Source: Candidatus Sumerlaeota bacterium
GTDB taxonomy: Bacteria > Sumerlaeota > Sumerlaeia > SLMS01 > JAHLLQ01
Length of the DNA stretch: 64,000 nt
Assembly (NCBI GenBank): GCA_030156535.1
Contig: JASGMJ010000001.1
Location: 186,001 to 250,000, forward strand
Reading direction: 5' to 3'
Part shown: positions 41,912 to 55,895 of the stretch, in pieces
Layout: every line of letters begins with the position of its first letter
How positions within the stretch are numbered: the first letter of the stretch is position 1
Position numbers and translations under genes: made by a program
Notes under the pieces: model-generated
Seen by the model: the letters and a program-made list of their open reading frames with translations, nothing else
Databases searched by the model: none
What the model was told of the DNA's origin: nothing

Positions 41912-42063
41912 CATTTCCGGCGGCCCAACCCACCGCTCTTCACAATCGCTTTCCTGCTTGAGATCGTGATCGCTGGCAGACAGAGTTGGTCGAAACCCGG
42001 CGAAACCGCATGGCATGTCCGCTTTCCGGGTGCGGACTGGGCTTTGCCCTCAAGGAGTTCGCG

Positions 42064-43194
42064 ATGGGTATCTTGCGTCTGGACGACCTCTTGCAGGAAA
42101 TGGTGGAGAAAGGGGCTTCCGACCTTTTCATTAAGGCGGGGGTGCCGCCTCACATCAGGGTGGATGGGCGGATTCAGCCGCTGCCTTATGGCGAGATGAA
42201 CATGCAGGACGTTCAGGACCTCGCGTGCGGCATGATGACCGAGGATCAGATCGTCTCGTTCGAAAAGTATCCCGAGATGGACCTGGCGATTGGCGTCAGC
42301 GGAGTCGGGCGATTCCGTGTGAACCTCTTTCGCCAGCGGGGGAGCACGGCCATGGTGTTCCGCCACATCACCCGGCCGAACTTCAGCTTCGACGACTTGT
42401 TGCTCCCTCCCGCAGTTCGCAAGCTCTCCGAGCAGCCTCGCGGCCTTGTTCTCGTCACGGGGACAACGGGTTCGGGCAAGTCCACGACGCTGGCCGCGAT
42501 GATCAACCATATCAACCACAGCCGGCGCTGCCACATCGTGACGATCGAGGATCCTATCGAGTTCCTCCACAGTGACAAGCGCGCGATCGTCAGCCAGCGC
42601 GAAGTCGGCTTCGACACCAAGACTTTCGAGGACGCACTGCGTCACGTTCTGCGCCAGGCCCCCGACGTCATTCTGATCGGCGAGATCCGCGACCTGGAAA
42701 CCGTGAAGACTTGCGTGGCGGCGGCAGAGACCGGGCACTTGGTGCTTTCGACGCTGCACACGATCAACGCGGTGCAGACCGTCGAACGCATCATCAACCT
42801 GTTCCCCGCTTATCTGCACGATCAGATTCGCATGGAATTGGCGCTGGGCTTGCAGGGCGTCATCAGCCAGCGCCTCTTGCCGCGCAAGAAGGGCGTCGGG
42901 CGTGTTCCGGCGGTGGAAGTCATGATCGGCACGCCGTTGGTCAAGAAGCTGATCAACGAGGGGAAGACTCTGGAACTCCTCCCGGCAATCGAGGACGGCG
43001 GGCACTGGGGGATGCAGAGCTTCAACCAGTCGCTTTATTGGCTGATCAAGAACGAAATCGTGAAGTACGAGGACGCCCTGCAGTACGCGACGAGCCCGGA
43101 AGAGCTTCGCCTCATGGTCGAAGGCATCACGACGGGAACGCGCAAGGAACAACAATCCATGCAACAATCCATGCCCGACCACGAGATGGCGTAG
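42064..43194 (+). CDS. Type IV pilus retraction ATPase (PilT/PilU family)
   Basis: This 376-residue hexameric ATPase powers pilus retraction at the inner face of the cytoplasmic membrane. It has the PAS-like N-domain (LLQEMVEKGASDLFIKAGVPP), Walker A GTTGSGKST, the Asp-box IEDPIEFLH, Walker B LIGEIRDLET and the His-box GHLVLSTLHT. The C-terminus diverges from the PilT AIRNLIRE signature and ends in a Gln/Met-rich tail, which resembles PilU more. AAGGAG lies just before ATG 42064. No other pilus genes are adjacent, which is common for pilT-like genes. Confidence 0.92.
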   Translation: MGILRLDDLLQEMVEKGASDLFIKAGVPPHIRVDGRIQPLPYGEMNMQDVQDLACGMMTEDQIVSFEKYPEMDLAIGVSGVGRFRVNLFRQRGSTAMVFRHITRPNFSFDDLLLPPAVRKLSEQPRGLVLVTGTTGSGKSTTLAAMINHINHSRRCHIVTIEDPIEFLHSDKRAIVSQREVGFDTKTFEDALRHVLRQAPDVILIGEIRDLETVKTCVAAAETGHLVLSTLHTINAVQTVERIINLFPAYLHDQIRMELALGLQGVISQRLLPRKKGVGRVPAVEVMIGTPLVKKLINEGKTLELLPAIEDGGHWGMQSFNQSLYWLIKNEIVKYEDALQYATSPEELRLMVEGITTGTRKEQQSMQQSMPDHEMA

Positions 43195-43204
43195 GGGGCG
43201 TGTG

Positions 43205-44860
43205 CTAGGTGTAGTCGATCAGTGACTTTTCGTCTTCCCGGCTGGACTCTCGATAGAAGATCGGGAGTGTGAAGTAGCTGTGCCGGAGGAGTTCGAGGCG
43301 TTCAATGCCCTCGGACTGCCGGGCCGACGAGGAGAGTGCGGCCACCATCTGATTGTTGACGATGCCGCGCAGGGTTTGGCGGCATTCCTGCGCCAGTTCC
43401 CAGGCGTTCGCAGGGTCGTTTCCTTCAAGCAGGGCACGGGCATCGTCGAGTTGCTGGCGTGCAAGAGCAATGATCGCTTCCTGGCGCTGGCCGGTGGCGA
43501 GTTGGGCGAGTTCGCTTTCAACGAAGCTCACTTTTTCGAGACGATGGCCAGTGCCTTCGAGCAGGGTGGCGCAGGCTTGTGGGAATGCCGTACGCATCGA
43601 TGCCTCGATTTCCTCGATGCGGGTGCGTGAAGAGGTGAGGAGAACGCGGGCGCTGATGTCGATGGATTGCAGGCGCAGACGGAGCGTCCCATTGCCGTCG
43701 CGCGTAAGGGAAACGGGAGTGGGTGCCGGAAAGTCGATGCGCCAGGCGTCGTAGCCGAAAGAGGCAGGGAGGCTCAGGCTGACTTCGACGCGATGCATGC
43801 GTGATGGATCGATCCAGTATTCATCCCCCTGGGCGGAACGCCAGAGGAGCAGAAGAACGTCGTCGCCGTGAGCAAGCAGCGCGGCGCGCAGGCGGGGATG
43901 CCCGGTTTCCACCTCGGCGTCGATGAATCGGCCTTCGGAATAGAACTCAGAACATGTTTGGATTTCCCGCGCGATGAGCGAAAGCTCCGCGAGGCGGTCG
44001 CGGCCGGTGGTTGGCGGTGGGCCGAGCAGAAACTCGTAGCAATCGGCCAGGAGCCCGCGAACGCGCTGGGCAAGAATCTCGTAGATCCGGACGCGGAGGA
44101 GATCGGCGTCGGGGGGAAGGAAGTCGTTGCGTGGAGTTTCGGCAAGGTTGGCGAGGAAGGGGAACCAGCGTTCGATCTGGGCGGGCAGATGGCGCACGAC
44201 GGGGTCGGAGTCGAAGAGGCCGGCACGCCGTGCCTCGTCGCTGATGCTTGCCTGGAAACGGTAGCAGATGAAGGGGCGGTCCACGGCCCTCTTGGCCGTG
44301 ATTTCCTTGCGCACGAGGTCGAGCGTTTCAGCTCCCTGGGAGAGAGGCGCCCGGGGGAGTGGCCCACCCACTCCCTGCTGAACGGCGTAGAAATCCCCGG
44401 ATTCCAGCCAGAGGTCCAGCGGATAGCCGGGGCGGAAGGGCGTCCAGATGGGATGAAAAAGGTCCTGGGTGCGGAGGCGGTCACGCTCGCGAAAGTACCA
44501 GAGGAGAGCTTCGCGGGTGTCGCCGGGTGTTGGAATACAGTAGGAGTGCAGCGACTGGCGGTGGCGGAAGGAGCGTGCGAGATAGGCGCTGGGTTCGGGG
44601 TCGAAAGGCTCGGTGGCGACGATGACCATCAGGCCGTGGCGCTCGGCGGCATCGAACACGAGGTCGATCAGCGGGAGGGTGCCGAGGCTGGCTGGTGGCG
44701 TGATGACGGTATTGAAGCCGTTGGCGGCGATGTGGGCGGCGGCTTCCTCGATGCGGTGCGCGGGAGTGAGAAGAATGCGCGTGCCGACGGCAAAGAACGG
44801 CCGTCCGTCGAGACGGATGACCGACCGGTCGAGAAGAATGCGAGTGCTGGATTCCGCCAT
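43205..44860 (-). CDS. Hypothetical protein with glycosidase-like N-terminus
   Basis: This 551-residue soluble protein has no signal peptide. The first 100 residues (RSVIRLDGRPFFAVGTRIL, then EEAAAHIAANGFNTVITP and ERHGLMVIVAT) follow the beta/alpha pattern that opens many TIM-barrel glycosidase-like domains. No catalytic acid pair can be named, so I do not assign activity. The C-terminal 150 residues are predicted helical with many Arg/Glu/Gln. It starts 32 bp after the stop of the giant CHC2-TPR gene and is probably co-transcribed; it converges on the PilT-like gene with a 10-bp gap. Confidence 0.75.
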   Translation of the reverse strand: MAESSTRILLDRSVIRLDGRPFFAVGTRILLTPAHRIEEAAAHIAANGFNTVITPPASLGTLPLIDLVFDAAERHGLMVIVATEPFDPEPSAYLARSFRHRQSLHSYCIPTPGDTREALLWYFRERDRLRTQDLFHPIWTPFRPGYPLDLWLESGDFYAVQQGVGGPLPRAPLSQGAETLDLVRKEITAKRAVDRPFICYRFQASISDEARRAGLFDSDPVVRHLPAQIERWFPFLANLAETPRNDFLPPDADLLRVRIYEILAQRVRGLLADCYEFLLGPPPTTGRDRLAELSLIAREIQTCSEFYSEGRFIDAEVETGHPRLRAALLAHGDDVLLLLWRSAQGDEYWIDPSRMHRVEVSLSLPASFGYDAWRIDFPAPTPVSLTRDGNGTLRLRLQSIDISARVLLTSSRTRIEEIEASMRTAFPQACATLLEGTGHRLEKVSFVESELAQLATGQRQEAIIALARQQLDDARALLEGNDPANAWELAQECRQTLRGIVNNQMVAALSSSARQSEGIERLELLRHSYFTLPIFYRESSREDEKSLIDYT

Positions 44861-44892: not shown

Positions 44893-47800
44893 TCATGACT
44901 TCGGTGTCAGATTTGGAGAATCGCCATCCTCGTCCTCGAACCAGATGGCGGATTCAAGGGCTTTCATGGCGTCTCGTTTGTTTACGGCCTGCTTGAGCCG
45001 GACGCGGGAACGCTGATCGGCCGGGCGTGCCTTGAGAATGCGCTCGCAGACGGCGATGCAGGGATTGATTTCGCCTTTCTGGAAAAAGTGTTCGCTGGCG
45101 GTGACGAGTTCCTCGATGGCCTCGTCCTGACTGCCGAGTTGTTCGAGGAGATCGGCGAGCTTGACGCGGACACTGGCGTTCTGGGGATTGATGCCGAGGA
45201 TGTCGCGATAGTTCTGGATCACCTGTTCCAGCGCCTGACGCTCTTCCTCTTCATCCATGCTTTCCATTTCGTCGGCAAGGAAGCTGGCGGCCGTGGCGGC
45301 GTGCCCGCGAGGCGTGCCGGTTCCCGTGCCATCGGGACGGCGCTCGGGGGACTTGGCGCCTGCTGCCGGCTTGGGGAATTTCGTTTCGTGGGGGCGTTCC
45401 GTCGGAGGCGCGTCAATGCGAGGCGGAGCAACGCGCTGGCCCTTGCGGCGCGCCTGGGTCTCCGAGAGACGGTCGCGGGCCTTCTTGTTCTCCGGATCGA
45501 GCGACATCACCTTGCTGAAGAGCTTGATGCCATCGTCCACGCGGTCGGCGGCGATATAGAGATCGGCGAGGACAAGGTAGTCGTCGCACAGATCGATTTC
45601 GGTGCCAAGGCGCAGGTAGGCTTCGATGTACTTTTCGCGGGCCGGAATGCTCCAGGGATTGAGGCGAATCACCATGCTGATGTAGTGCAGGGCCTCGTTC
45701 GTGTCGCCGCGGCGTGCGAGGATATCGGAATAATCAAGGTACTCCTGTTGGAGGTCCTTCTCCTCGCCGTATCCGAGTCGCGCCTCGAAGAGAGAGCGCC
45801 ACGCGCGGTCGCAATCGGAGTCGAGCTTGATGACCTGGCGGAATTCCTTTTCGGCAAGGTCGGCAAGCCCACGCTCCATGTAGGCATCGGCAAGCAGAAG
45901 CTGCTGCTCGACGGCTTTGGATATCGCTTCCGTGGCGGTAAGGGCTTCGACGAGTTCCCGCCGCATTTCGAGATTCTGGGGGTCGAGCTCGACAGCCATG
46001 CGCAGCACGTCGGCGCGCCTCGTGTCGTTCTTGTTCTCGCGGTAGAGCTTGAGGGCCTGCTCGATTTCAATCAGCGCCATGCCACGCGCATTGCGGGCCT
46101 TGTGAACCTGCGCCTGGGCGAGATGGAAATCGGCGTTTCCCTTTCCGATGCGCTCGACCTTTGCGAGCGCATCGCCGGCTTCGCGGAATGCCCCGAGATC
46201 GAGAAGAATCTGAACGAGTTGCTGATTCTGGGCGAGGGCGTCTTCATTTTGCTCGGCCGCGACGAGGGCGTCGATCAAGGCCGTGCGAATCTGCGGGTCT
46301 GCGGGATCGAGTTCGACGGCGGTCCTAAGACGCTCGATCGCTTCATCATGGGAGCCCCTCTCGCGAAGAAGACGGGCGAGTTCGACGAGATTGGGAATCC
46401 GGCGGCGTGGTGTTCTGGTGTCGCTGAGCGCGTCGTCGAGCGCGGTGCGTGCAATCATGTCGCCGGGAACGGTCTCGATCAGTTGCTCCAGCACGCGTGC
46501 CGCCATTTCACTGTCGCCCTGCTGGCGGTGGATTTGGGCAAGACGGGCCAGCTCTTCGCCCGCTTCCCTGGTCTTGCCGAGGCGCTGGTAAATGTTCGCG
46601 AGTGCCTGTGCGTGCCCGGGAACATTCGGTTCCATGGCACTCAGTGCCTCGTAGACCTCCTGTGCCTTCTCGAAGGCTTCGGCTTCGCGCAGCGTTTCTC
46701 CGACTTCGAGAAGCGCCTCGCACGCCTCGGCAATCTCACCGAGACCCTTGCACGCGGTCGCGAGGATTTCGCGTGCTTCGAGATCGCGTGGCTTGATTTC
46801 GAGTGTCTTGCGGCACCAGTGCTTGGCCTGATCGAACCGTCCGGCGCCGGCATGGAGTTCCGCAATCGCCGTGTATTCCTGGGCTGCCGCCTCGGGAATA
46901 TCGTTTTCAACGAAGAGTTGGGCGATGCGCGAGCGGAACTTCTCGTTGGTGGATTCGGTCTCGTAGATCCCGCGAAGAAGGTTGCTGCTTTCCTCGATCA
47001 TGCCGCGGGAAAGTTGCGTACGAACGACTGCGGTGAATTCGTCGAGTGCCTCGTCGATGCGGCCTGCACCGTACAGTTCGTGAGCGACGCGGGTACGCAT
47101 GTCGAGGTCTTCGGGGACGAGCGACGCGGCGAGGCGCATGGTGGCTGCCGCCTCACCGGGATCGCCCGCGTCGCGATAGCGCTGGGCCGCATCGGCATAC
47201 GCGGCCGCAGCCCCTTGCTGGTCGCCGGCAGTCTCCAGGAGACGCGCGCGTGCCAGTGCAATGTCCGTGGACTCAGGAAGAAGAGCCGTGGCCTTTTCGA
47301 GAGCACTCTGGGCAGCGGCAATGTCGCCGCCATCGCCCGCGTGGCTTGCAATCCAGAGAAACTCCTCAGCCGCGTTCTGTTTGTCTCCCTGTGTGGCAAG
47401 GAGTTCGGCTAGGAGTTCGTGGGGCCGGAAGCTTGCCGGATCGAGTTCGATTGCCTTGCGCAGGGCGGCGATTGCCTCGTGCGGGGAGTCAGATGCCAGC
47501 GATTCGCCGAGATTGGCATAATCGATCGCTGCTTCGCGGGTGTCGCCGAGTTTTTCGCGCGCCGTGGCGAGTTGCGTGCGGTTGGCAGTGCGCGAGGGAT
47601 CGAGCCGCACCAGTGCTTCGAGGATACGGGTGTGTTCGCGCGGGAAGGCCTCCACACGGGGAAGGGCTTTCTCGAGTTCCTGGATGGCTTGTGTCGTCTT
47701 GCCGAGGTCTTCAAAGAGTATGGCCCGGAGTTCCAGTACTTCGACATCGGCAGTGGCGCTGGCCATGATGATGTCGGTGACGCGGAGGGCATTGGCAGAT

Positions 47801-50800
47801 TCGCCGTCAGCGCGATAGAGCTTGGCGGACTGAATGAGATGGGTGAAGGCCTCCGTTTCGTTGCCGAGCAGGAAGTAGACCCTGCCGGATGCCTCGTGGG
47901 CCTTGGGGCCAAGGGGCTGGAGCTTTTCAAGCCGAGCAAGAACTTCGCGCGCCTTGCTGGTGTCGCCCGTGTCAGCAACGGCTTCCGCAGCGTCGATGTA
48001 GACGCCAAGGGCACGAGCCTTCTTGCCATCGCGCACGAAATAGGACGCGAGAAGAAGACGCGCTTCGATATTCGTGGGATCTGCCTGGACAATCCCCTCG
48101 CAAACGGAGATCGCATCGGCGAATGCACCGGCCTTCTCGAAGACCGAGGCAAGACGGAGCGAACATGCTGTGACGAGATCACTGCGCTCTTCCGCGAGAG
48201 CGAGGGCTATTTGCTCGCGAAGAAGAACGGGACTTTCGGGATCGAGCTCGAGTGCCTTCTCGTAGTAGTCGATCGCCGTCTTGTTGTCCTTGCGTGCAAT
48301 AGCACTCTTGGCCAGCAGGGCGAACTCATCGCGGGCAGCGCTGATTTCGCCTTCATCGCACAACATGGTGGCAAGGCGCTGGCGAATGTCCTCGGCCTCG
48401 GGATCAAGTTCGAGAAGCTGGCGGAGTACCTCGATGAGCTCGCGCGCGGTGTGGTCGCCGTCATCAAGGGCAAGAAGCTCGCGCAGATACTTGACGGCGT
48501 CCGGCTTGCGGCTCTCGTCGTGGGCGATCAGGCTCGCAAGTGCTTGGCGTGCCTCGCGATTATCGCTGTCGATGTCGAGAAGTTCCTTCCAGGTGGCTTC
48601 GGCTTCGGCCTCCTGGTCTTCTTCGGTCTGCCGCCTTGCGATGCGCGCGAGGGTCTGGACGGCGTCGCGGTCCTTCGCGGCGGCAAGCTGGGCACGGACG
48701 AGTTCGCGCAGCAGCACGATGCTGCCACTGAAGCGGGCGATTCCCCATTCGAGCAGTTCGAGAGCGCAGTCGGGGTCGGGCTTCTGAAGCTGGGCGGTAG
48801 CGGCCTGATGAATCGTTTCAATGGCCTCTTCGCTCTGGCTTCTGGAGGCGAGAAGTTCGGCGATGGCGACCTGATGGTCCACGGAAAGGGGGACGAGTTG
48901 AGCGGCGCGGGCGCAAAGCTCGCGGCCCTTGGCGGCGTCGTTGCGCTCGAAGCTGCGGCGGGCAAGAGCAAGCGCCTGCTGGGCTGCGGATTCGCGGGCT
49001 CCAATGGCGAGGAGGAAGTCGAGGTACTCGCTGCCGATCCCGATGTCATCGGGGGCAAGCTGAAGAAGGCGGTCGTAGATCGGTTTTGCTTCGAGGGGGT
49101 CGGAGCCGTTGGCAATGATGCGGGCAACGCGGGCGTATTCACGTCCGGCCTCTTCGGTCATGCCGAGTTGTTCGAGGACTTCGGCGTGCGCAAACCCGAT
49201 GTCGATGTTGTCAGGGACGAGTTGGCTGGCGCGTTCGAGATAAGTGCGTGCCTCGTCGAGGTCCTCCGTTTCGAGAGCTTCCTTGGCGAGCTTCAGGAGC
49301 TCCGTGCCACCCTTGGATGGCTGGCCGTTCCGGTTGTGGAGTTCGACGAGCAGCAGGCGTGCCCGCTTGTCATTGGCGTCGAGGGAGGCGAGATGACGGA
49401 GCAGGCGCTCGGCAGCCGGAAACGCCTCCAGCTCGATGCGGGCTTCGGCGATCAACAGCCCGTGGGTGATGGCATCCGCGGGACGCCCGAGGGCCTCGCA
49501 AAGCTCGGCAAGGCGCGTGCGAAGTTCCGTGTCGGAAGGATCAAGTTCGAGCCCGAACTCGCAGATGGAGGCTCTGAGCGTTTGCTCGGCATCGTTGGTG
49601 CGCATGTCGAGGAACGCGCGCACCCCTTCGATGGCGCGCTGCTTGTGCTCGTGATTGGCCAGCAGGCGATAGAGATTCCGCAGGAACTCCCACTCCGCGA
49701 TGCGCTCGCAACGTTCCACGAGCTCAAGGGCGCGCGTTGGCTGCTTGGCGAGAAGCTGCCCCTCGACGCACGTGTGAAACTCTTCGAGCGCGTTGGCAGT
49801 CTGCCCGGCGGCTTCGAGCATCAGGGCGCGCTTCTCACGCAAGTCGAGCCGGCCGGGTTCGAGGACAAGCGCGCGCTGAAGTGACTCAGCGGCCCGGCGG
49901 TGGTCCTTCGCCTCTTGGAGACGCAGGGCGAGCTTGATCCAGAGGTCAAGGGCGGCAGCGGTATCGCCCCTCCCAATCAGGAGTTCGGAAATCCTCCCGG
50001 CAATCGCCATGTCGCTGGGCATCAATTCATGGAGCTTGCGCAGCTCGGCGAGACAGTCGTCGATGCGGTCCTTTTCCTGATACCATTCCGCGAGGCCGAG
50101 AACTTCCTCGCGCAGTTTGACGTTCTGGCCCGTGCGGGTGAAGAGAGCGACAAGCGCCTGGCGGGGTTTCTCGTTGTCGTCGCGGAGTTCAGCCACTTTG
50201 CGATAGCTGATCTCGGCGTTGATGGTGTCGCCGGCTTCTTCGGCCAGCGTCGCCGCCTGCTCGTAGTGATCCGCCGCAGCGAGAACGTCGCCCTTTTTCT
50301 CGAGTGCTTCCGCGAGTTTCATGCGGATGGAAGCGTCGGTGGGGTCGAGTTCGAGCGCCCGGTTTGCTGCCCGCAGAAAGATGGCTGGGTTGTCATCTTC
50401 GGTGCGTTTCACAACAACCCGATAAGCCTCGAGTGCCTCGCTCTTCTTCCCTTCGCGATGGCAAAGATCGGCGTAAAGAAGCCGGGCGGGAACGTCTTTG
50501 GGACGCTCCTCGACGAGTGGGAGAAGCACCTTGGAATCGAGTTCGATGGAGGCGTCCTCGGGGAGGGCCTCGGCCATGGCGTCGAGTTCGTGAAGCGCCT
50601 CGGCGGTCTTGCCCAGCGCGAGGAAGGCGCGAAGCCGCAGAACCTGAAGAGGAGCATGGGAAGGATCCGCCTGGAGGCCACGGCGGCAAAACTCCAGTGC
50701 CTGTTCGGGGTCCTTGCGGTCGAGCCACGCGGCTGCCGCATCGTGCCATGTGCTGATGGCGTCCTGGACGCGGTCGGCCTGGAGATAGCAATCGGCGATC

Positions 50801-52221
50801 AGATTTCGGAGCGATTCGTCGGCAGGGGAGAGCTCGAGCAGGCGCGCGATGAGAGCGAGAGCTTCGTCTTCCTCTTTTCTTATCAGGAAGCAGCGCAGTG
50901 CTTCGAGGAATTCCGGAGAGGCCATGGCCACATCGCCTGTGGCAAGCAGGGCGTCGGCGACAAAGAGATGATGGGCGGGATTATCCGGTTCGAGTTCGCG
51001 GGCTTTTGCCGCTTCTTCGATCGCCTGATCTTCGAGTCCGCTTTCAAGAAGCGACCTGGCGATGGCGAGGCGCTCGGTGGCTTCCTCGCGACGCATTCCC
51101 TGGCGGGCAAAGAGCGACGCCAGGCCCTCATGCGCGGAGACGCTGCCCGCGTCGGATTCGAGAATGCGGCGGAAGTAGGTTTCGGCTTCGGCAAACTTGC
51201 CCTGTGCGGCCAACTCCGTCCCGATGGCGGCGAGGAGGGAACCCGCGTCCACGGAGCGCCCGGCCTTCTCGTACAGAGCCGCGAGTGCTTCGCGCCGGGC
51301 GATGTCGCCCGGATGAAGACGGACCAGCGTTTCGTGGATTTCAATGCTGAGTTCGGGGTCCTCGTCCCCCGCGATTTCGGCCGCTTTTTCGTACTCGGTG
51401 AGAGCCGCCTTTGTCTGGCGGGCTGCCTCCAGTGCCCGGGCATGGCGCAGGCGCAGGCGATAGTCGGCTTCGATGGCCTCCTTGAGGCGCTCGAAGAGGG
51501 GCACATTGAGGGCGGGTTGGTCGCGCTTCTCGCGCAGCTCGATGACCTTCAAGAGACATTCCTGCTGCTGGGCGGCGTCTTCGACGGCGTCGGCCAGTTC
51601 CAGCAGTGCCTGCTCATTGTCCGGATCGGCGCGCAAGGCCTCCTCGCGGAGAATGCGTTCGGCTTCGGAGCGGTCGTCCTTCTTGCGTGCGAGGCGGGCT
51701 GCGGCGGTGAAGTGCCCTGCTGCCTCGGCGGCATTGCCTCCCTCTTCGGCAAGGCGCCCGCTGAGCAGAGCGACGGAGACGCTCTCGGGGTCGAGTTCGG
51801 CGGCGCGTCCGATGGATTCGCGGGCGGCCGCAAGATCGCCTTCTTCGAGGGCTTGGCGGGCATTGTCGAGATGCTCGCCCGTCGCGCGGCCACGCATCCC
51901 CTCGTCAACCTCCAGGCCGCACAGGCGCGCCGCCTCGAAGGCCGCGTCCAGGCCTTGCAGGCCCAGGTGCAGTCCCACCAGTTCGACGAGGGTGATCTCG
52001 CGGCTGGCTTCGCAGGACGCCACCATGCACTTGCAGGTGTTCTTCTTGGGCTGCACGAGCAGCGTCGAGAAGCGGTCGTCCTTGTGGATCATGCATGGCG
52101 TCTTCAGCGTTCCGCCCAGGACCACCATTTTGTCCGTGCGGAACCCGATCGCCTCGATGAGGCGGCGAGCATCAAGTTGCTGATTTATTGCCTGAACAGG
52201 ATCTTTTTCTTCGGCTGTCAT
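44893..52221 (-). CDS. Giant CHC2-zinc-finger/TPR protein (2442 residues)
   Basis: Residues 1-110 resemble the DnaG-type CHC2 zinc-binding module: Cys43-x2-His46, then Cys63/Cys65/Cys70 and the following helices (ITLVELVGLHLGLQGLDAAFEAARLCGLEV). The polymerase part of primase is absent. From about residue 115 to 2400 the chain is almost entirely TPR helices with recurrent LxPxNxxxRxxLAxLxxxxGxxxEA patterns, several dozen units in all. A low-complexity Pro/Arg/Lys linker lies near residues 2255-2310. There is no signal peptide or membrane segment, so it is cytoplasmic. A scaffold role is the obvious reading; nucleic-acid binding by the finger is inference. Confidence 0.85.
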   Translation of the reverse strand: MTAEEKDPVQAINQQLDARRLIEAIGFRTDKMVVLGGTLKTPCMIHKDDRFSTLLVQPKKNTCKCMVASCEASREITLVELVGLHLGLQGLDAAFEAARLCGLEVDEGMRGRATGEHLDNARQALEEGDLAAARESIGRAAELDPESVSVALLSGRLAEEGGNAAEAAGHFTAAARLARKKDDRSEAERILREEALRADPDNEQALLELADAVEDAAQQQECLLKVIELREKRDQPALNVPLFERLKEAIEADYRLRLRHARALEAARQTKAALTEYEKAAEIAGDEDPELSIEIHETLVRLHPGDIARREALAALYEKAGRSVDAGSLLAAIGTELAAQGKFAEAETYFRRILESDAGSVSAHEGLASLFARQGMRREEATERLAIARSLLESGLEDQAIEEAAKARELEPDNPAHHLFVADALLATGDVAMASPEFLEALRCFLIRKEEDEALALIARLLELSPADESLRNLIADCYLQADRVQDAISTWHDAAAAWLDRKDPEQALEFCRRGLQADPSHAPLQVLRLRAFLALGKTAEALHELDAMAEALPEDASIELDSKVLLPLVEERPKDVPARLLYADLCHREGKKSEALEAYRVVVKRTEDDNPAIFLRAANRALELDPTDASIRMKLAEALEKKGDVLAAADHYEQAATLAEEAGDTINAEISYRKVAELRDDNEKPRQALVALFTRTGQNVKLREEVLGLAEWYQEKDRIDDCLAELRKLHELMPSDMAIAGRISELLIGRGDTAAALDLWIKLALRLQEAKDHRRAAESLQRALVLEPGRLDLREKRALMLEAAGQTANALEEFHTCVEGQLLAKQPTRALELVERCERIAEWEFLRNLYRLLANHEHKQRAIEGVRAFLDMRTNDAEQTLRASICEFGLELDPSDTELRTRLAELCEALGRPADAITHGLLIAEARIELEAFPAAERLLRHLASLDANDKRARLLLVELHNRNGQPSKGGTELLKLAKEALETEDLDEARTYLERASQLVPDNIDIGFAHAEVLEQLGMTEEAGREYARVARIIANGSDPLEAKPIYDRLLQLAPDDIGIGSEYLDFLLAIGARESAAQQALALARRSFERNDAAKGRELCARAAQLVPLSVDHQVAIAELLASRSQSEEAIETIHQAATAQLQKPDPDCALELLEWGIARFSGSIVLLRELVRAQLAAAKDRDAVQTLARIARRQTEEDQEAEAEATWKELLDIDSDNREARQALASLIAHDESRKPDAVKYLRELLALDDGDHTARELIEVLRQLLELDPEAEDIRQRLATMLCDEGEISAARDEFALLAKSAIARKDNKTAIDYYEKALELDPESPVLLREQIALALAEERSDLVTACSLRLASVFEKAGAFADAISVCEGIVQADPTNIEARLLLASYFVRDGKKARALGVYIDAAEAVADTGDTSKAREVLARLEKLQPLGPKAHEASGRVYFLLGNETEAFTHLIQSAKLYRADGESANALRVTDIIMASATADVEVLELRAILFEDLGKTTQAIQELEKALPRVEAFPREHTRILEALVRLDPSRTANRTQLATAREKLGDTREAAIDYANLGESLASDSPHEAIAALRKAIELDPASFRPHELLAELLATQGDKQNAAEEFLWIASHAGDGGDIAAAQSALEKATALLPESTDIALARARLLETAGDQQGAAAAYADAAQRYRDAGDPGEAAATMRLAASLVPEDLDMRTRVAHELYGAGRIDEALDEFTAVVRTQLSRGMIEESSNLLRGIYETESTNEKFRSRIAQLFVENDIPEAAAQEYTAIAELHAGAGRFDQAKHWCRKTLEIKPRDLEAREILATACKGLGEIAEACEALLEVGETLREAEAFEKAQEVYEALSAMEPNVPGHAQALANIYQRLGKTREAGEELARLAQIHRQQGDSEMAARVLEQLIETVPGDMIARTALDDALSDTRTPRRRIPNLVELARLLRERGSHDEAIERLRTAVELDPADPQIRTALIDALVAAEQNEDALAQNQQLVQILLDLGAFREAGDALAKVERIGKGNADFHLAQAQVHKARNARGMALIEIEQALKLYRENKNDTRRADVLRMAVELDPQNLEMRRELVEALTATEAISKAVEQQLLLADAYMERGLADLAEKEFRQVIKLDSDCDRAWRSLFEARLGYGEEKDLQQEYLDYSDILARRGDTNEALHYISMVIRLNPWSIPAREKYIEAYLRLGTEIDLCDDYLVLADLYIAADRVDDGIKLFSKVMSLDPENKKARDRLSETQARRKGQRVAPPRIDAPPTERPHETKFPKPAAGAKSPERRPDGTGTGTPRGHAATAASFLADEMESMDEEEERQALEQVIQNYRDILGINPQNASVRVKLADLLEQLGSQDEAIEELVTASEHFFQKGEINPCIAVCERILKARPADQRSRVRLKQAVNKRDAMKALESAIWFEDEDGDSPNLTPKS

Positions 52222-52498: not shown

Positions 52499-52601
52499 TT
52501 ACTTCCGGCCTTCCTCTTCGCGCAGCCGGTCGCGCCGGTCCATGTTGCCGAAGCGGTTGAGCCCTTCCCACTGCTCGGCCGTCTTGAACGAGAAGGAGTA
52601 G
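52311..52601 (+). CDS. Doubtful small ORF with promoter-like upstream elements
   Basis: A 96-codon frame starts ATG 11 bases after AGGAGG and 33 bases after a perfect TATAAT. Residues 1-60 (MHLLKHITGGQSDASDFLRI...) look protein-like. The last third is antisense to the 3' end of the lipoprotein gene and is Arg/Ser-rich, which argues against it. Kept as a candidate only. Confidence 0.25.
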   Translation: MHLLKHITGGQSDASDFLRILGVSNGANKRYSSNFRHYKELISGYMIDVFQSVALALGAMGVAYFRPSSSRSRSRRSMLPKRLSPSHCSAVLNEKE

Positions 52602-54454
52602 GGGATGTTCGTGATGCGGTCGCCGGTCAGAGTCTTGACGCGGCCGCGGATGGTGATCGTGTATTCCTCGTCGGCCTCGAAGACGCCGCTGATATTCAGG
52701 TGCCCCCAGCCGGTTTTTCCATCGGTGCCAAAGTAAACGTTGGGGTTGAGTGCCAGCGCCGGACGGATGCTCACGTCGCGCGGCTCGAAGCCCTCGCCGT
52801 CCACCGGGGCATTGAAGAAGACGCGAACGGGGCTTGTGGTGTGCGGGAAGACACTCGTGTCTCCGTCCTCGGGCCAGGTTCGGACGATCTTGGCTTCTCC
52901 TGTCGTCAGGTTCATGGAGAAGGGTTCTTTGAGCGCAACGCCTTCGGCGCTTCGAGCCTTGGTGCTCAGGCGGATCGTGTACTTCGTGCCATAGCGCAAC
53001 GGCGTGCCCGAGCGCGTGTAGCCCGCGAGGCGGATCTCGAAGCGGTCATCTGAGGGAGTGGAAGCAGAGTATTCGACGTCGGGGGCGATGGCCAGGGCAT
53101 CGAGCAGGGAGGCCCGGTCCATCTTGGTGCTGAAGATGATCAGGACCCTGGTTGGGTCCTCGATGCTGATGTCGCTGGCTCCACTGGCCGGGCGTGTGGC
53201 GACGATGCGCGGGGCCTCGATGGCGAGCTTGAGTTCGATGGGCGGCGCGACGGTTTGTTGCTCGGCGGCCACGGTGATGCCCTTTTCGATGACGGGTTCG
53301 TAGCCCGTGCGGCTTGCCGTGAGTTCGTAGGTGCCGGGGGGAACATCTTCCAGGGCGAAGAAACCCTCGTCGTCTGTGGTGGCGAGGAAGTTTGTGCCGC
53401 TGAGGGCCACGGTGATGCCGGAATTTCCACCGCCCTTGGAGTCTTCGAGGGTAGCCTGCCCGATCACAGACCCCACGAGCGCGCCCTCGGGAATCTCAGC
53501 GCGCAGAGTCAGCGAAACCTCCGCGATGTCCAGGGCTCCGAGGTCCACCCGGTAGGCGCGGTCGAGGGTGTAGCCTTCAGCAGTGGCAACGACCGTAAAG
53601 ACATCGGGTTGCAAGTTGGAGAACTCGAAAATTCCCGTTCCGTCGGGGCGTGTGCTGAACGTCGTTCCTTCGAGAGAGACAAGCACCGAGTTGTAGTCCG
53701 TGACGGCCTCGCCCTCGGGGCCGAACAGCGTCACCGTGCCCAGGATCGTGCGGCCCAGGACCGTGCCGGGGTCGCGGGGTGCCAGCAGCACTTCGGCGAG
53801 ATCGGTTGTCTGGCCCGCGAAAATTTCGACAGGGCGCTCCTCGTCCAGATAGCCCGGCTTGCGAAAGCGCAGCGAGTAGCGCCCCTGGGGGACGTTGAGC
53901 AGCAGGAAGGAGCCGGATTGATCGCTGACGGTGCGGAAAGACGTGCCGACAAGGTCGATCACGATGCCGCCGGCATCGAGCGGGTTGTAGGGATTGATGC
54001 GCCCTTGGAGCGTGCCGAGTCCGGCTCTCTCCAGAGGCGATTTGACGGCGGCGATGAAACCGCCGGGCTTCATGGTGAACTCGCCCAGATCAAGGAATGG
54101 CTGTTCGCGTTGAAGGTCCTCCGGAGCCACGATCACATCGCCGAGCTCCAGCGTTTCGAGGTCGGCACGCAGCGCACGCAGAATGTAGGCGCGGTCGTCC
54201 AGTTCCGAGAGTTCAAAGAACCCCGTGCGGTCGGTCACGGCCAGATGCGAGGTGCCCTCCGCATAGACAATGATCCCACCGGGATCGTTGCCGTTTTCCA
54301 GTGTGATCGTGCCGGTGACACTCGCTTTGGGAACGGGCACGTACTGCACGATCTCCCGGGCAGGCGTTTGCTGCGGTTGTTGCCGATCGCAGGCAGTCAG
54401 ACCCAGCAGTACGGCAAGGAGAACAGGGACGAGTTGGAAGAGGCGTGAAGTCAT
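52499..54454 (-). CDS. Lipoprotein with carboxypeptidase-regulatory and Ig-like domains
   Basis: This 651-residue protein has a lipoprotein signal with lipobox LTAC and lipidated Cys22. Four carboxypeptidase-regulatory-like beta-sandwich repeats follow (each with the motif YxLxxxxxGY or similar, for example VPPGTYELTASRTGYEPV). Two Big_5-type Ig-like domains come after about residue 400 (PASGASDISIEDPTRVLIIFS and WPEDGDTSVFPHTTSPVRVFF). It is thus an exported adhesin or structural lipoprotein. One base separates its ATG from the NamZ-like stop upstream (TGA-C-ATG), so the two are translationally coupled. Confidence 0.9.
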   Translation of the reverse strand: MTSRLFQLVPVLLAVLLGLTACDRQQPQQTPAREIVQYVPVPKASVTGTITLENGNDPGGIIVYAEGTSHLAVTDRTGFFELSELDDRAYILRALRADLETLELGDVIVAPEDLQREQPFLDLGEFTMKPGGFIAAVKSPLERAGLGTLQGRINPYNPLDAGGIVIDLVGTSFRTVSDQSGSFLLLNVPQGRYSLRFRKPGYLDEERPVEIFAGQTTDLAEVLLAPRDPGTVLGRTILGTVTLFGPEGEAVTDYNSVLVSLEGTTFSTRPDGTGIFEFSNLQPDVFTVVATAEGYTLDRAYRVDLGALDIAEVSLTLRAEIPEGALVGSVIGQATLEDSKGGGNSGITVALSGTNFLATTDDEGFFALEDVPPGTYELTASRTGYEPVIEKGITVAAEQQTVAPPIELKLAIEAPRIVATRPASGASDISIEDPTRVLIIFSTKMDRASLLDALAIAPDVEYSASTPSDDRFEIRLAGYTRSGTPLRYGTKYTIRLSTKARSAEGVALKEPFSMNLTTGEAKIVRTWPEDGDTSVFPHTTSPVRVFFNAPVDGEGFEPRDVSIRPALALNPNVYFGTDGKTGWGHLNISGVFEADEEYTITIRGRVKTLTGDRITNIPYSFSFKTAEQWEGLNRFGNMDRRDRLREEEGRK

Positions 54455-54455
54455 G

Positions 54456-55844
54456 TCAGTACAGGAGTGACCGGAGTCGCCAGTTTTCGAGCTGCTGGTA
54501 TGGTTCAAGTCCCTGCCAAAGACGCTGAATCGTTGGAGCATCCCGGCCCTCCCTGAGCAGCTCGAAGATGAGGGTTGTATTGTATGCGCCCGTATTGCCG
54601 CCCGATGGCAAGAAAGAAGGATCCGAATCGGCAAAGATCGACCACAGGGTGATGGAGTCCGTCACGGGTGTGTCGAGCAGACGGACGGGGGTCAGCAGCA
54701 CGGTGGCCGGGTCTTCGGAGGCCACCGTGCAGGTGAAGGAGGAAAGACCGGCGCCCTGCACTTTGGCGCGAAAATCCGCAGCAGTGAGCGGAGCCGTTCT
54801 CAGGAGAAGGCCTGCGGTTTTGTCTTTTGGCGTCTCAATGCCCGCCACCTTGTCCGATGGCAGCAGGCTGCGCACCAGACGAAGCTGCCCGGCGATGGGG
54901 TCGCGGGGGAGGTACTCGTCCCACTCGTCGAGCCCCTGCCACGGTTGAAGGCCGAGGCGGTCGTAGACTTCGTAGACGGGACGCATGCCTGAACGGCGGT
55001 CCCAGTTTTCCATGCTGACGACTGTGATGCGGGCTCCCATGCCGAAACGCATGTTGAGCATTCGGACGTACTCGCCCGGTGTCAGTCCCGGCAGAAGCAG
55101 GCCGGGGCGGAAGGAAGTTGCTTTGCCGAAATTTCCGGGGTCGGCCGGTGGGCCTTCGAAGACGAGTCCGTTGATCGGATGCGGGCGGTCGAGAACGAGA
55201 ACTTCGATGTCGTTGAGTGCGGCGTCCTCGATCACGCCGCCAAGAAAGCCGTACTCGGGGTTGAAGCTCCCGGGGCGCAGCGGAAGATCGATCAGGATGA
55301 GGTCGACTTCCTCGATCATGCCGGGGGTCAGGCGGAAGTTGGAGGGCGTACGCTCGAAGACGCGCACGTTGGGGTAGGAAGCGAGGGAGCGCTCCAGCGC
55401 TGCGCTGCGTGCGGGCGCAGGCAGCTCATCGTTGAAGAGAACAACGCGGCGAACGATCGGCTTGCGCAGCGGCAGGAGAAGCTGGACCAGGTGATTGCCT
55501 TCACCATCGAGCGCGAGGCGATTGGTGACGACCAGCACGTGACGGTGGTCGAGCAGTTGGAAATCCTCGCGCTTCAGGACATCGACGCCGAGCGAGAAGG
55601 TCTTGCTGGCGTCGAGTTGCGGCAGCACCTTCTCGTTCAACAGGATGGCCGTGCGGTCGGGATCGAAGCGATCGGGGCGCACGCGCTGGGAGGGCTCTTG
55701 CAGTGCAATGGGTGGCGGGAAATCCGGCTGTGGTGCCGGGGCAGTTGCGCTGGCGGGCGGGGTCTTCGACGCGCAGGCCAGTGCCAACGCCGCAAAGAGG
55801 GCGGCGACGGTGAAAGTTCTGAGGATTCTGGCGGGCATTGTCAT
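54456..55844 (-). CDS. NamZ/DUF1343-like lipoprotein
   Basis: This 462-residue lipoprotein (lipobox LALAC, lipidated Cys24) carries the DUF1343 framework of exo-beta-N-acetylmuramidase NamZ: HVLVVTNRLALDGEGNHLVQLL, RPHPINGLVFEGP and GLTPGEYVRMLNMRFGMGARITV. The S-P-E-H-G stretch that follows in typical members reads FNDEL here, so activity on muropeptides is uncertain. If active it would trim N-acetylmuramic acid in the periplasm. ATG 55844 was chosen; GTG 55847 and ATG 55838 are alternatives. The coupled downstream gene encodes another lipoprotein. Confidence 0.78.
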   Translation of the reverse strand: MTMPARILRTFTVAALFAALALACASKTPPASATAPAPQPDFPPPIALQEPSQRVRPDRFDPDRTAILLNEKVLPQLDASKTFSLGVDVLKREDFQLLDHRHVLVVTNRLALDGEGNHLVQLLLPLRKPIVRRVVLFNDELPAPARSAALERSLASYPNVRVFERTPSNFRLTPGMIEEVDLILIDLPLRPGSFNPEYGFLGGVIEDAALNDIEVLVLDRPHPINGLVFEGPPADPGNFGKATSFRPGLLLPGLTPGEYVRMLNMRFGMGARITVVSMENWDRRSGMRPVYEVYDRLGLQPWQGLDEWDEYLPRDPIAGQLRLVRSLLPSDKVAGIETPKDKTAGLLLRTAPLTAADFRAKVQGAGLSSFTCTVASEDPATVLLTPVRLLDTPVTDSITLWSIFADSDPSFLPSGGNTGAYNTTLIFELLREGRDAPTIQRLWQGLEPYQQLENWRLRSLLY

Positions 55845-55895
55845 CACAGGTTCGTTGCTTCCCTTCCAGTGGAGCCATTGTTTCGGAGTGATATC

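Follow-up and report, generated by a model that had tools for sequence, protein, structure and literature searches.

In the window, the whole 64,000-nucleotide stretch of DNA that was analysed, the gene at 44893..52221 on the minus strand encodes a protein of 2442 aa in which a zinc ribbon of the DnaG type is joined to a giant TPR solenoid. The homology of this ribbon to the DnaG ribbon is secure at the level of the family, as judged from sequence profiles and a predicted fold, and the combination of known parts, together with its phylum-wide presence, appears to be new. A literature search found no description of the architecture or of its pairing with a SPOR-domain protein, which is weak evidence considering that the search covered mostly the open literature, and the main Sumerlaeota genome paper does not mention the terms of the architecture. 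Our tentative reading, to which we give slightly less than an even chance, is that the window protein acts as a hub in the cytosol, comparable to FimV/HubP, and docks to a membrane protein anchored in the cell wall. The results indicate that the DnaG zinc ribbon is a module freely reused outside replication, in a family present in nearly all genomes examined of a phylum with little-charted cell biology, and they provide a specific candidate partner as well as a paralogue joining the ribbon to a DnaA-type AAA+ domain.

The reading frame starts with ATG and comprises 2442 open codons with coding-type codon usage (GC by codon position 0.74/0.43/0.73). The nearest orthologue, from a Candidatus Sumerlaeia genome, showed 55% identity to the window protein over 2438 aligned residues and 81% in the zinc domain alone; the first 200 and the last 400 residues of the window protein were the best-kept stretches and the middle was the most variable. 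Orthologues are longer, with open frames of up to 3127 aa and one of 3845. No signal peptide or transmembrane (TM) helix was evident in the window protein (maximal 19-residue hydropathy 1.36), its net charge is -137, and it is probably cytosolic. Chance or artefact as the origin of the architecture was ruled out by the orthologues, the predicted fold and the shuffled controls described below. A role in anti-phage defence was also rejected; PADLOC returned nothing for the window protein, and class B (the DnaA-type paralogue, below) gave one weak PrimPol match inside the TPR region. A phage or plasmid origin was likewise dismissed: nothing from phages was matched, and the two hits to plasmids, annotated CHC2, were weak (E 0.2). 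In PHROGs, weak DNA-primase matches were obtained for a few zinc-ribbon family members only.

The zinc-ribbon domain, delimited by the family profile, Pfam and the predicted fold, spans residues ~9-112 (51886..52197, minus strand). Its predicted metal ligands form the pattern CxxH-x18-C-x4-C (52012..52095, minus strand) and are C43 (52093-52095), H46 (52084-52086), C65 (52027-52029) and C70 (52012-52014), all of which are retained in the window protein and align with those of DnaG. Across the family the three ligand Cys are invariant and the ligand His is nearly invariant. The window protein alone gave no match to Pfam CHC2 (PF01807), a profile that was matched by 32 of the 44 family members (best E 1.6e-7); the link to DnaG is firm because these 44 members were pooled, the window member by itself lying below Pfam detection. 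The family profile matched two sequences only in the PDB, both of them DnaG (2au3, E 1.2e-6; 1d0q, E 0.0027), with CxxH...C...C aligned in the two matches, and it also recovered the DnaG encoded in the window's genome (E 3.4e-8), as well as DnaG-sized frames of ~600 aa in many other phyla. The AlphaFold2 model of the zinc domain (pLDDT 92, pTM 0.85) had 2au3 (E 4.5e-5) and 1d0q (E 1.1e-3, TM 0.60/0.66) as its only significant structure matches. The original prediction had placed a primase-type zinc domain in the N-terminal ~110 residues, and this was borne out by the family profile, PF01807 and the predicted fold; the structure prediction that it proposed as a check led to DnaG structures and not to an unrelated fold.

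The family ribbon shares with the DnaG zinc domain (PF01807, Zn_ribbon_DnaG; 1d0q, 2au3) a homologous fold, the CxxH with two more Cys, a GG motif and the N-terminal position. It differs in having C-x4-C where DnaG has C-x2-C and, in the alignment with DnaG, in lacking the DnaG-specific TPSF and FGCG motifs. In the ribbon tree, DnaG ribbons and TPR-family ribbons formed two separate sets (support 100/99); classes C and D, defined below, each formed one clade, and with few columns the deeper branching order is not settled. A truncated primase or DnaG pseudogene was rejected, since an intact DnaG is encoded elsewhere in the genome and the ribbons form a separate clade. Unlike DnaG, the window protein has no TOPRIM or primase core and its ribbon is fused to TPRs; beyond the ribbon, Pfam showed only TPR and similar helical repeats. 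The TPR-like solenoid of about 57 units, detected by Pfam and a family-trained HMM, extends over residues ~121-2402 (45016..51861, minus strand) and contains a Pro/charged low-complexity break, seen in the sequence and the repeat scan, at residues ~2246-2325 (45247..45486, minus strand). Counting with the HMM trained on the family at a threshold of 0 bits gave 57 units above 0 bits in residues 121-2402, 40 of which exceeded 5 bits, as against 0-1 matches in 20 shuffled copies used as control. The earlier statements that there is no primase core and that the remainder consists of TPR repeats both held.

We searched 386 genomes, 40 of them Candidatus Sumerlaeota, and the N-domain was matched in 37 of these 40, mostly in several copies each. 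Class A, to which the window gene belongs, consists of the giant zinc-ribbon TPR proteins; class B carries the zinc ribbon, TPRs and a C-terminal DnaA-type AAA+ domain (PF00308); class C proteins have ~440-620 aa, few TPRs and a conserved tail; and class D is a stand-alone ribbon of ~140-170 aa. Searching other phyla for the same fusion, as had been suggested, was productive. Class A-like giants were detected beyond Sumerlaeota in two species of one other phylum, G304 (ribbon-TPR proteins of 3058 and 967 aa) and G167 (a ribbon-TPR protein of 1257 aa and a ribbon-GGDEF protein of 293 aa), and a short form (280-296 aa) was found in G221 and G076, two species of another phylum. In G340 and G201 the ribbon was joined to a DnaB-like domain, Pfam-tested in the protein of G201. 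Since the ribbon occurs alone in class D and is fused to GGDEF and DnaB-like domains, it can be regarded as a mobile module. At the level of single loci, L157 6883-7764 (-) encodes a family ribbon with a GGDEF-like domain attached, and a ribbon with a DnaB/KaiC-like ATPase (757-764 aa) lies in two genomes at L158 5892-8186 (-) and L159 5921-8194 (-), the latter Pfam-tested.

In 16 of the 24 class A loci, the gene directly upstream on the same strand encoded a homologous exported protein, separated from the class A gene by 1-230 bp or slightly overlapping it. SPOR domains were found in all eight of the upstream proteins scanned with Pfam, and the giant-form loci of G304 and G167 had the same SPOR-domain neighbour upstream. 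These proteins begin with a signal or TM segment, followed by SPOR domains that are accompanied by NHL or Con A-like domains, then by a TM helix and, after a linker, by a C-terminal domain of ~188 aa. The latter is Con A-like with weak Laminin_G_3 similarity and showed 45-72% identity to a reference member in a set of 16 drawn from the two phyla. The C-terminal domain was present in 40 of the 386 genomes, namely in 38 of the 40 Sumerlaeota (once each) and in G304 and G167 only; because the last two are one lineage, the co-occurrence outside the phylum represents one event. Eighteen partners were examined; almost all of them had a single strong TM helix after the SPOR region, and in 15 of the 18 K/R was commoner after this helix than before it, which by the positive-inside rule would put the C-terminal domain in the cytoplasm. 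Hydropathy and this rule together suggest a partner with periplasmic SPOR domains and a cytoplasmic Con A-like domain. Some observations speak against a docked pair. The C-terminal domain was undetected in the upstream protein of L097. In the window's own taxonomic family the partner gene was present and unlinked to class A (G000:C48), its protein showing no SPOR domain in a Pfam scan, and in the Sumerlaeota draft genomes G010 and G034 the partner was present and the zinc-ribbon TPR protein undetected. DamX and FtsN are inner-membrane proteins with a periplasmic SPOR domain, as the partner would be; unlike them, the partner has its SPOR domains before the TM helix, a C-terminal domain predicted to be cytoplasmic and additional NHL or Con A-like domains.

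We propose that the zinc ribbon, which shares common descent with that of DnaG, caps the ~2300-residue TPR solenoid of a cytosolic scaffold, and that this scaffold may form the cytoplasmic part of a hub anchored in the envelope. The partner would bind the cell wall via its periplasmic SPOR domains, cross the inner membrane and expose its conserved Con A-like domain to the cytoplasm, where the scaffold could dock on it, as the gene pairing, the co-occurrence and the conserved ends suggest. The ribbon itself would most likely serve as a protein- or ligand-binding head and not as a reader of priming sites. The polar hubs FimV/HubP combine a periplasmic peptidoglycan-binding LysM domain, a TM helix, a large acidic cytoplasmic part and TPR (PMC12918733). 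The Sumerlaeota pair is alike in outline (peptidoglycan-binding domain, TM helix, acidic cytoplasmic part and TPR), and the likeness concerns the working principle only: nothing beyond generic TPR indicated homology to FimV/HubP, and the window protein gave no Pfam match to LysM or FimV domains. The features that FimV/HubP unite in one polypeptide are split over two proteins in Sumerlaeota, with SPOR in place of LysM, a Con A-like cytoplasmic domain and a primase-type ribbon. Gene adjacency can also reflect co-regulation without contact. Since the family is phylum-wide and the gene most closely associated with it in the genomes encodes a cell-wall-binding membrane protein, an envelope scaffold is likelier than a DNA-replication protein.

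The gene upstream of the window gene encodes a predicted lipoprotein in which Pfam detected CarboxypepD_reg and Big_5 domains (52499..54634, minus strand); it takes the upstream place of the SPOR partner in the window's own taxonomic family, where a gene of 666-720 aa stood at this position in three of the four loci read. The next upstream gene matched NamZ_N, of the exo-beta-N-acetylmuramidase family, in Pfam (54456..55847, minus strand). Downstream lies a 551-aa gene (43205..44860, minus strand) whose product had no curated Pfam match and had a predicted glycoside-hydrolase-like TIM-barrel fold, with GH66, GH5 and GH30 among its best fold matches, in agreement with the original description of it as TIM-barrel-like. 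This gene adjoined class A in all four loci of the window's taxonomic family read there, and its homologues were found in 11 of the 12 genomes of the order and, among the genomes searched, in that one order only. We rejected it as an obligate partner, as it is linked to class A only in the window's own taxonomic family, yet present across the order.

The suggestion that the protein is a nucleic-acid-responsive scaffold is not favoured. We consider it unlikely that the zinc ribbon has retained DnaG's reading of single-stranded DNA, with the TPR array coupling replication state to other proteins. Homology to the DnaG ribbon and the two outlier members with a DnaB-like domain are consistent with such a role, as is class B. 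In most genomes of the phylum PF00308 matches just two proteins, of which one is the true DnaA and the other class B. In class B the DnaA AAA+ domain was matched with E values of 1e-59 to 1e-66; Walker A is visible, the Walker B and sensor motifs are retained, and so, for the most part, is Box VII. However, the DnaG signature residues TPSF and FGCG are gone. The N-domain also differs in net charge between classes: the value is ~0 in class A, -4.5 in class B and -7 in class C, compared with +1 in DnaG, so that classes B and C are acidic, while the near-neutral charge of class A, similar to that of DnaG, is uninformative as proof of DNA binding by the window protein. Class B resembles DnaA/Hda in its AAA+ domain, but it has ribbon and TPRs in front and lacks the DNA-binding domain IV, the protein stopping ~35 aa past sensor II. 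In G304 and G167 a DnaA-type AAA+ domain carries MshEN instead of ribbon-TPR, a setting outside replication, and the neighbour of class A is an envelope protein; taken with the pilus ATPases next to short forms, this genomic setting points to the envelope. In the window's own genome, class B (ribbon, TPR and DnaA AAA+ without domain IV) is located on contig 21 at L036 6441-10793 (+). The MshEN-DnaA AAA+ fusions of two species of another phylum are at L185 3340-4953 (-) and L186 2145-3728 (+); a literature search found no paper on this fusion. MshEN is a c-di-GMP-binding domain.

A similarly improbable reading is that the protein regulates, from the cytosol, the ATPases of type IV pili or type II secretion, perhaps as part of c-di-GMP signalling. 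In two genomes the class C gene immediately precedes two PilT-like genes, with a T2SSE match among these; the short ribbon-TPR genes of G221 and G076 lay between a TPR-protein gene and genes for an AAA and two PilB-like proteins, one of which was tested and matched T2SSE and MshEN; and one family member is fused to GGDEF. In view of the pilus-ATPase neighbours and the links to MshEN, the ribbon may act as a regulatory or docking head. A PilT-like gene homologous to those beside class C of the same genome also lies two genes from the window gene (41986..43194, plus strand), but on the opposite strand and with one gene in between, and no pilus ATPase gene neighboured the remaining loci of classes A and B, nor class C in three other genomes. 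The class C gene and the two PilT-like genes share one strand at L035 3000-7193 (-) and L038 4112-8195 (-).

A more speculative form of the envelope hub, which we hold to be quite doubtful, is that it was assembled from replication parts (DnaG ribbons, a DnaA AAA+ switch, TPR and a septal SPOR protein) and relays chromosome state; if true, chromosome state would be relayed to cell division or envelope growth phylum-wide. That the ribbon is a mere structural cap without a binding role, the TPR array doing all the work, is very unlikely: zinc ligands and core hydrophobics are its main conserved features and it abuts the first TPR, but it also stands alone at ~140 aa in class D and is fused to GGDEF and DnaB-like domains. 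A gene that by eye is NadC-like (quinolinate phosphoribosyltransferase) accompanied class B at L042, L052, L098, L104, L105, L106 and L118, directly upstream in six loci or very near.
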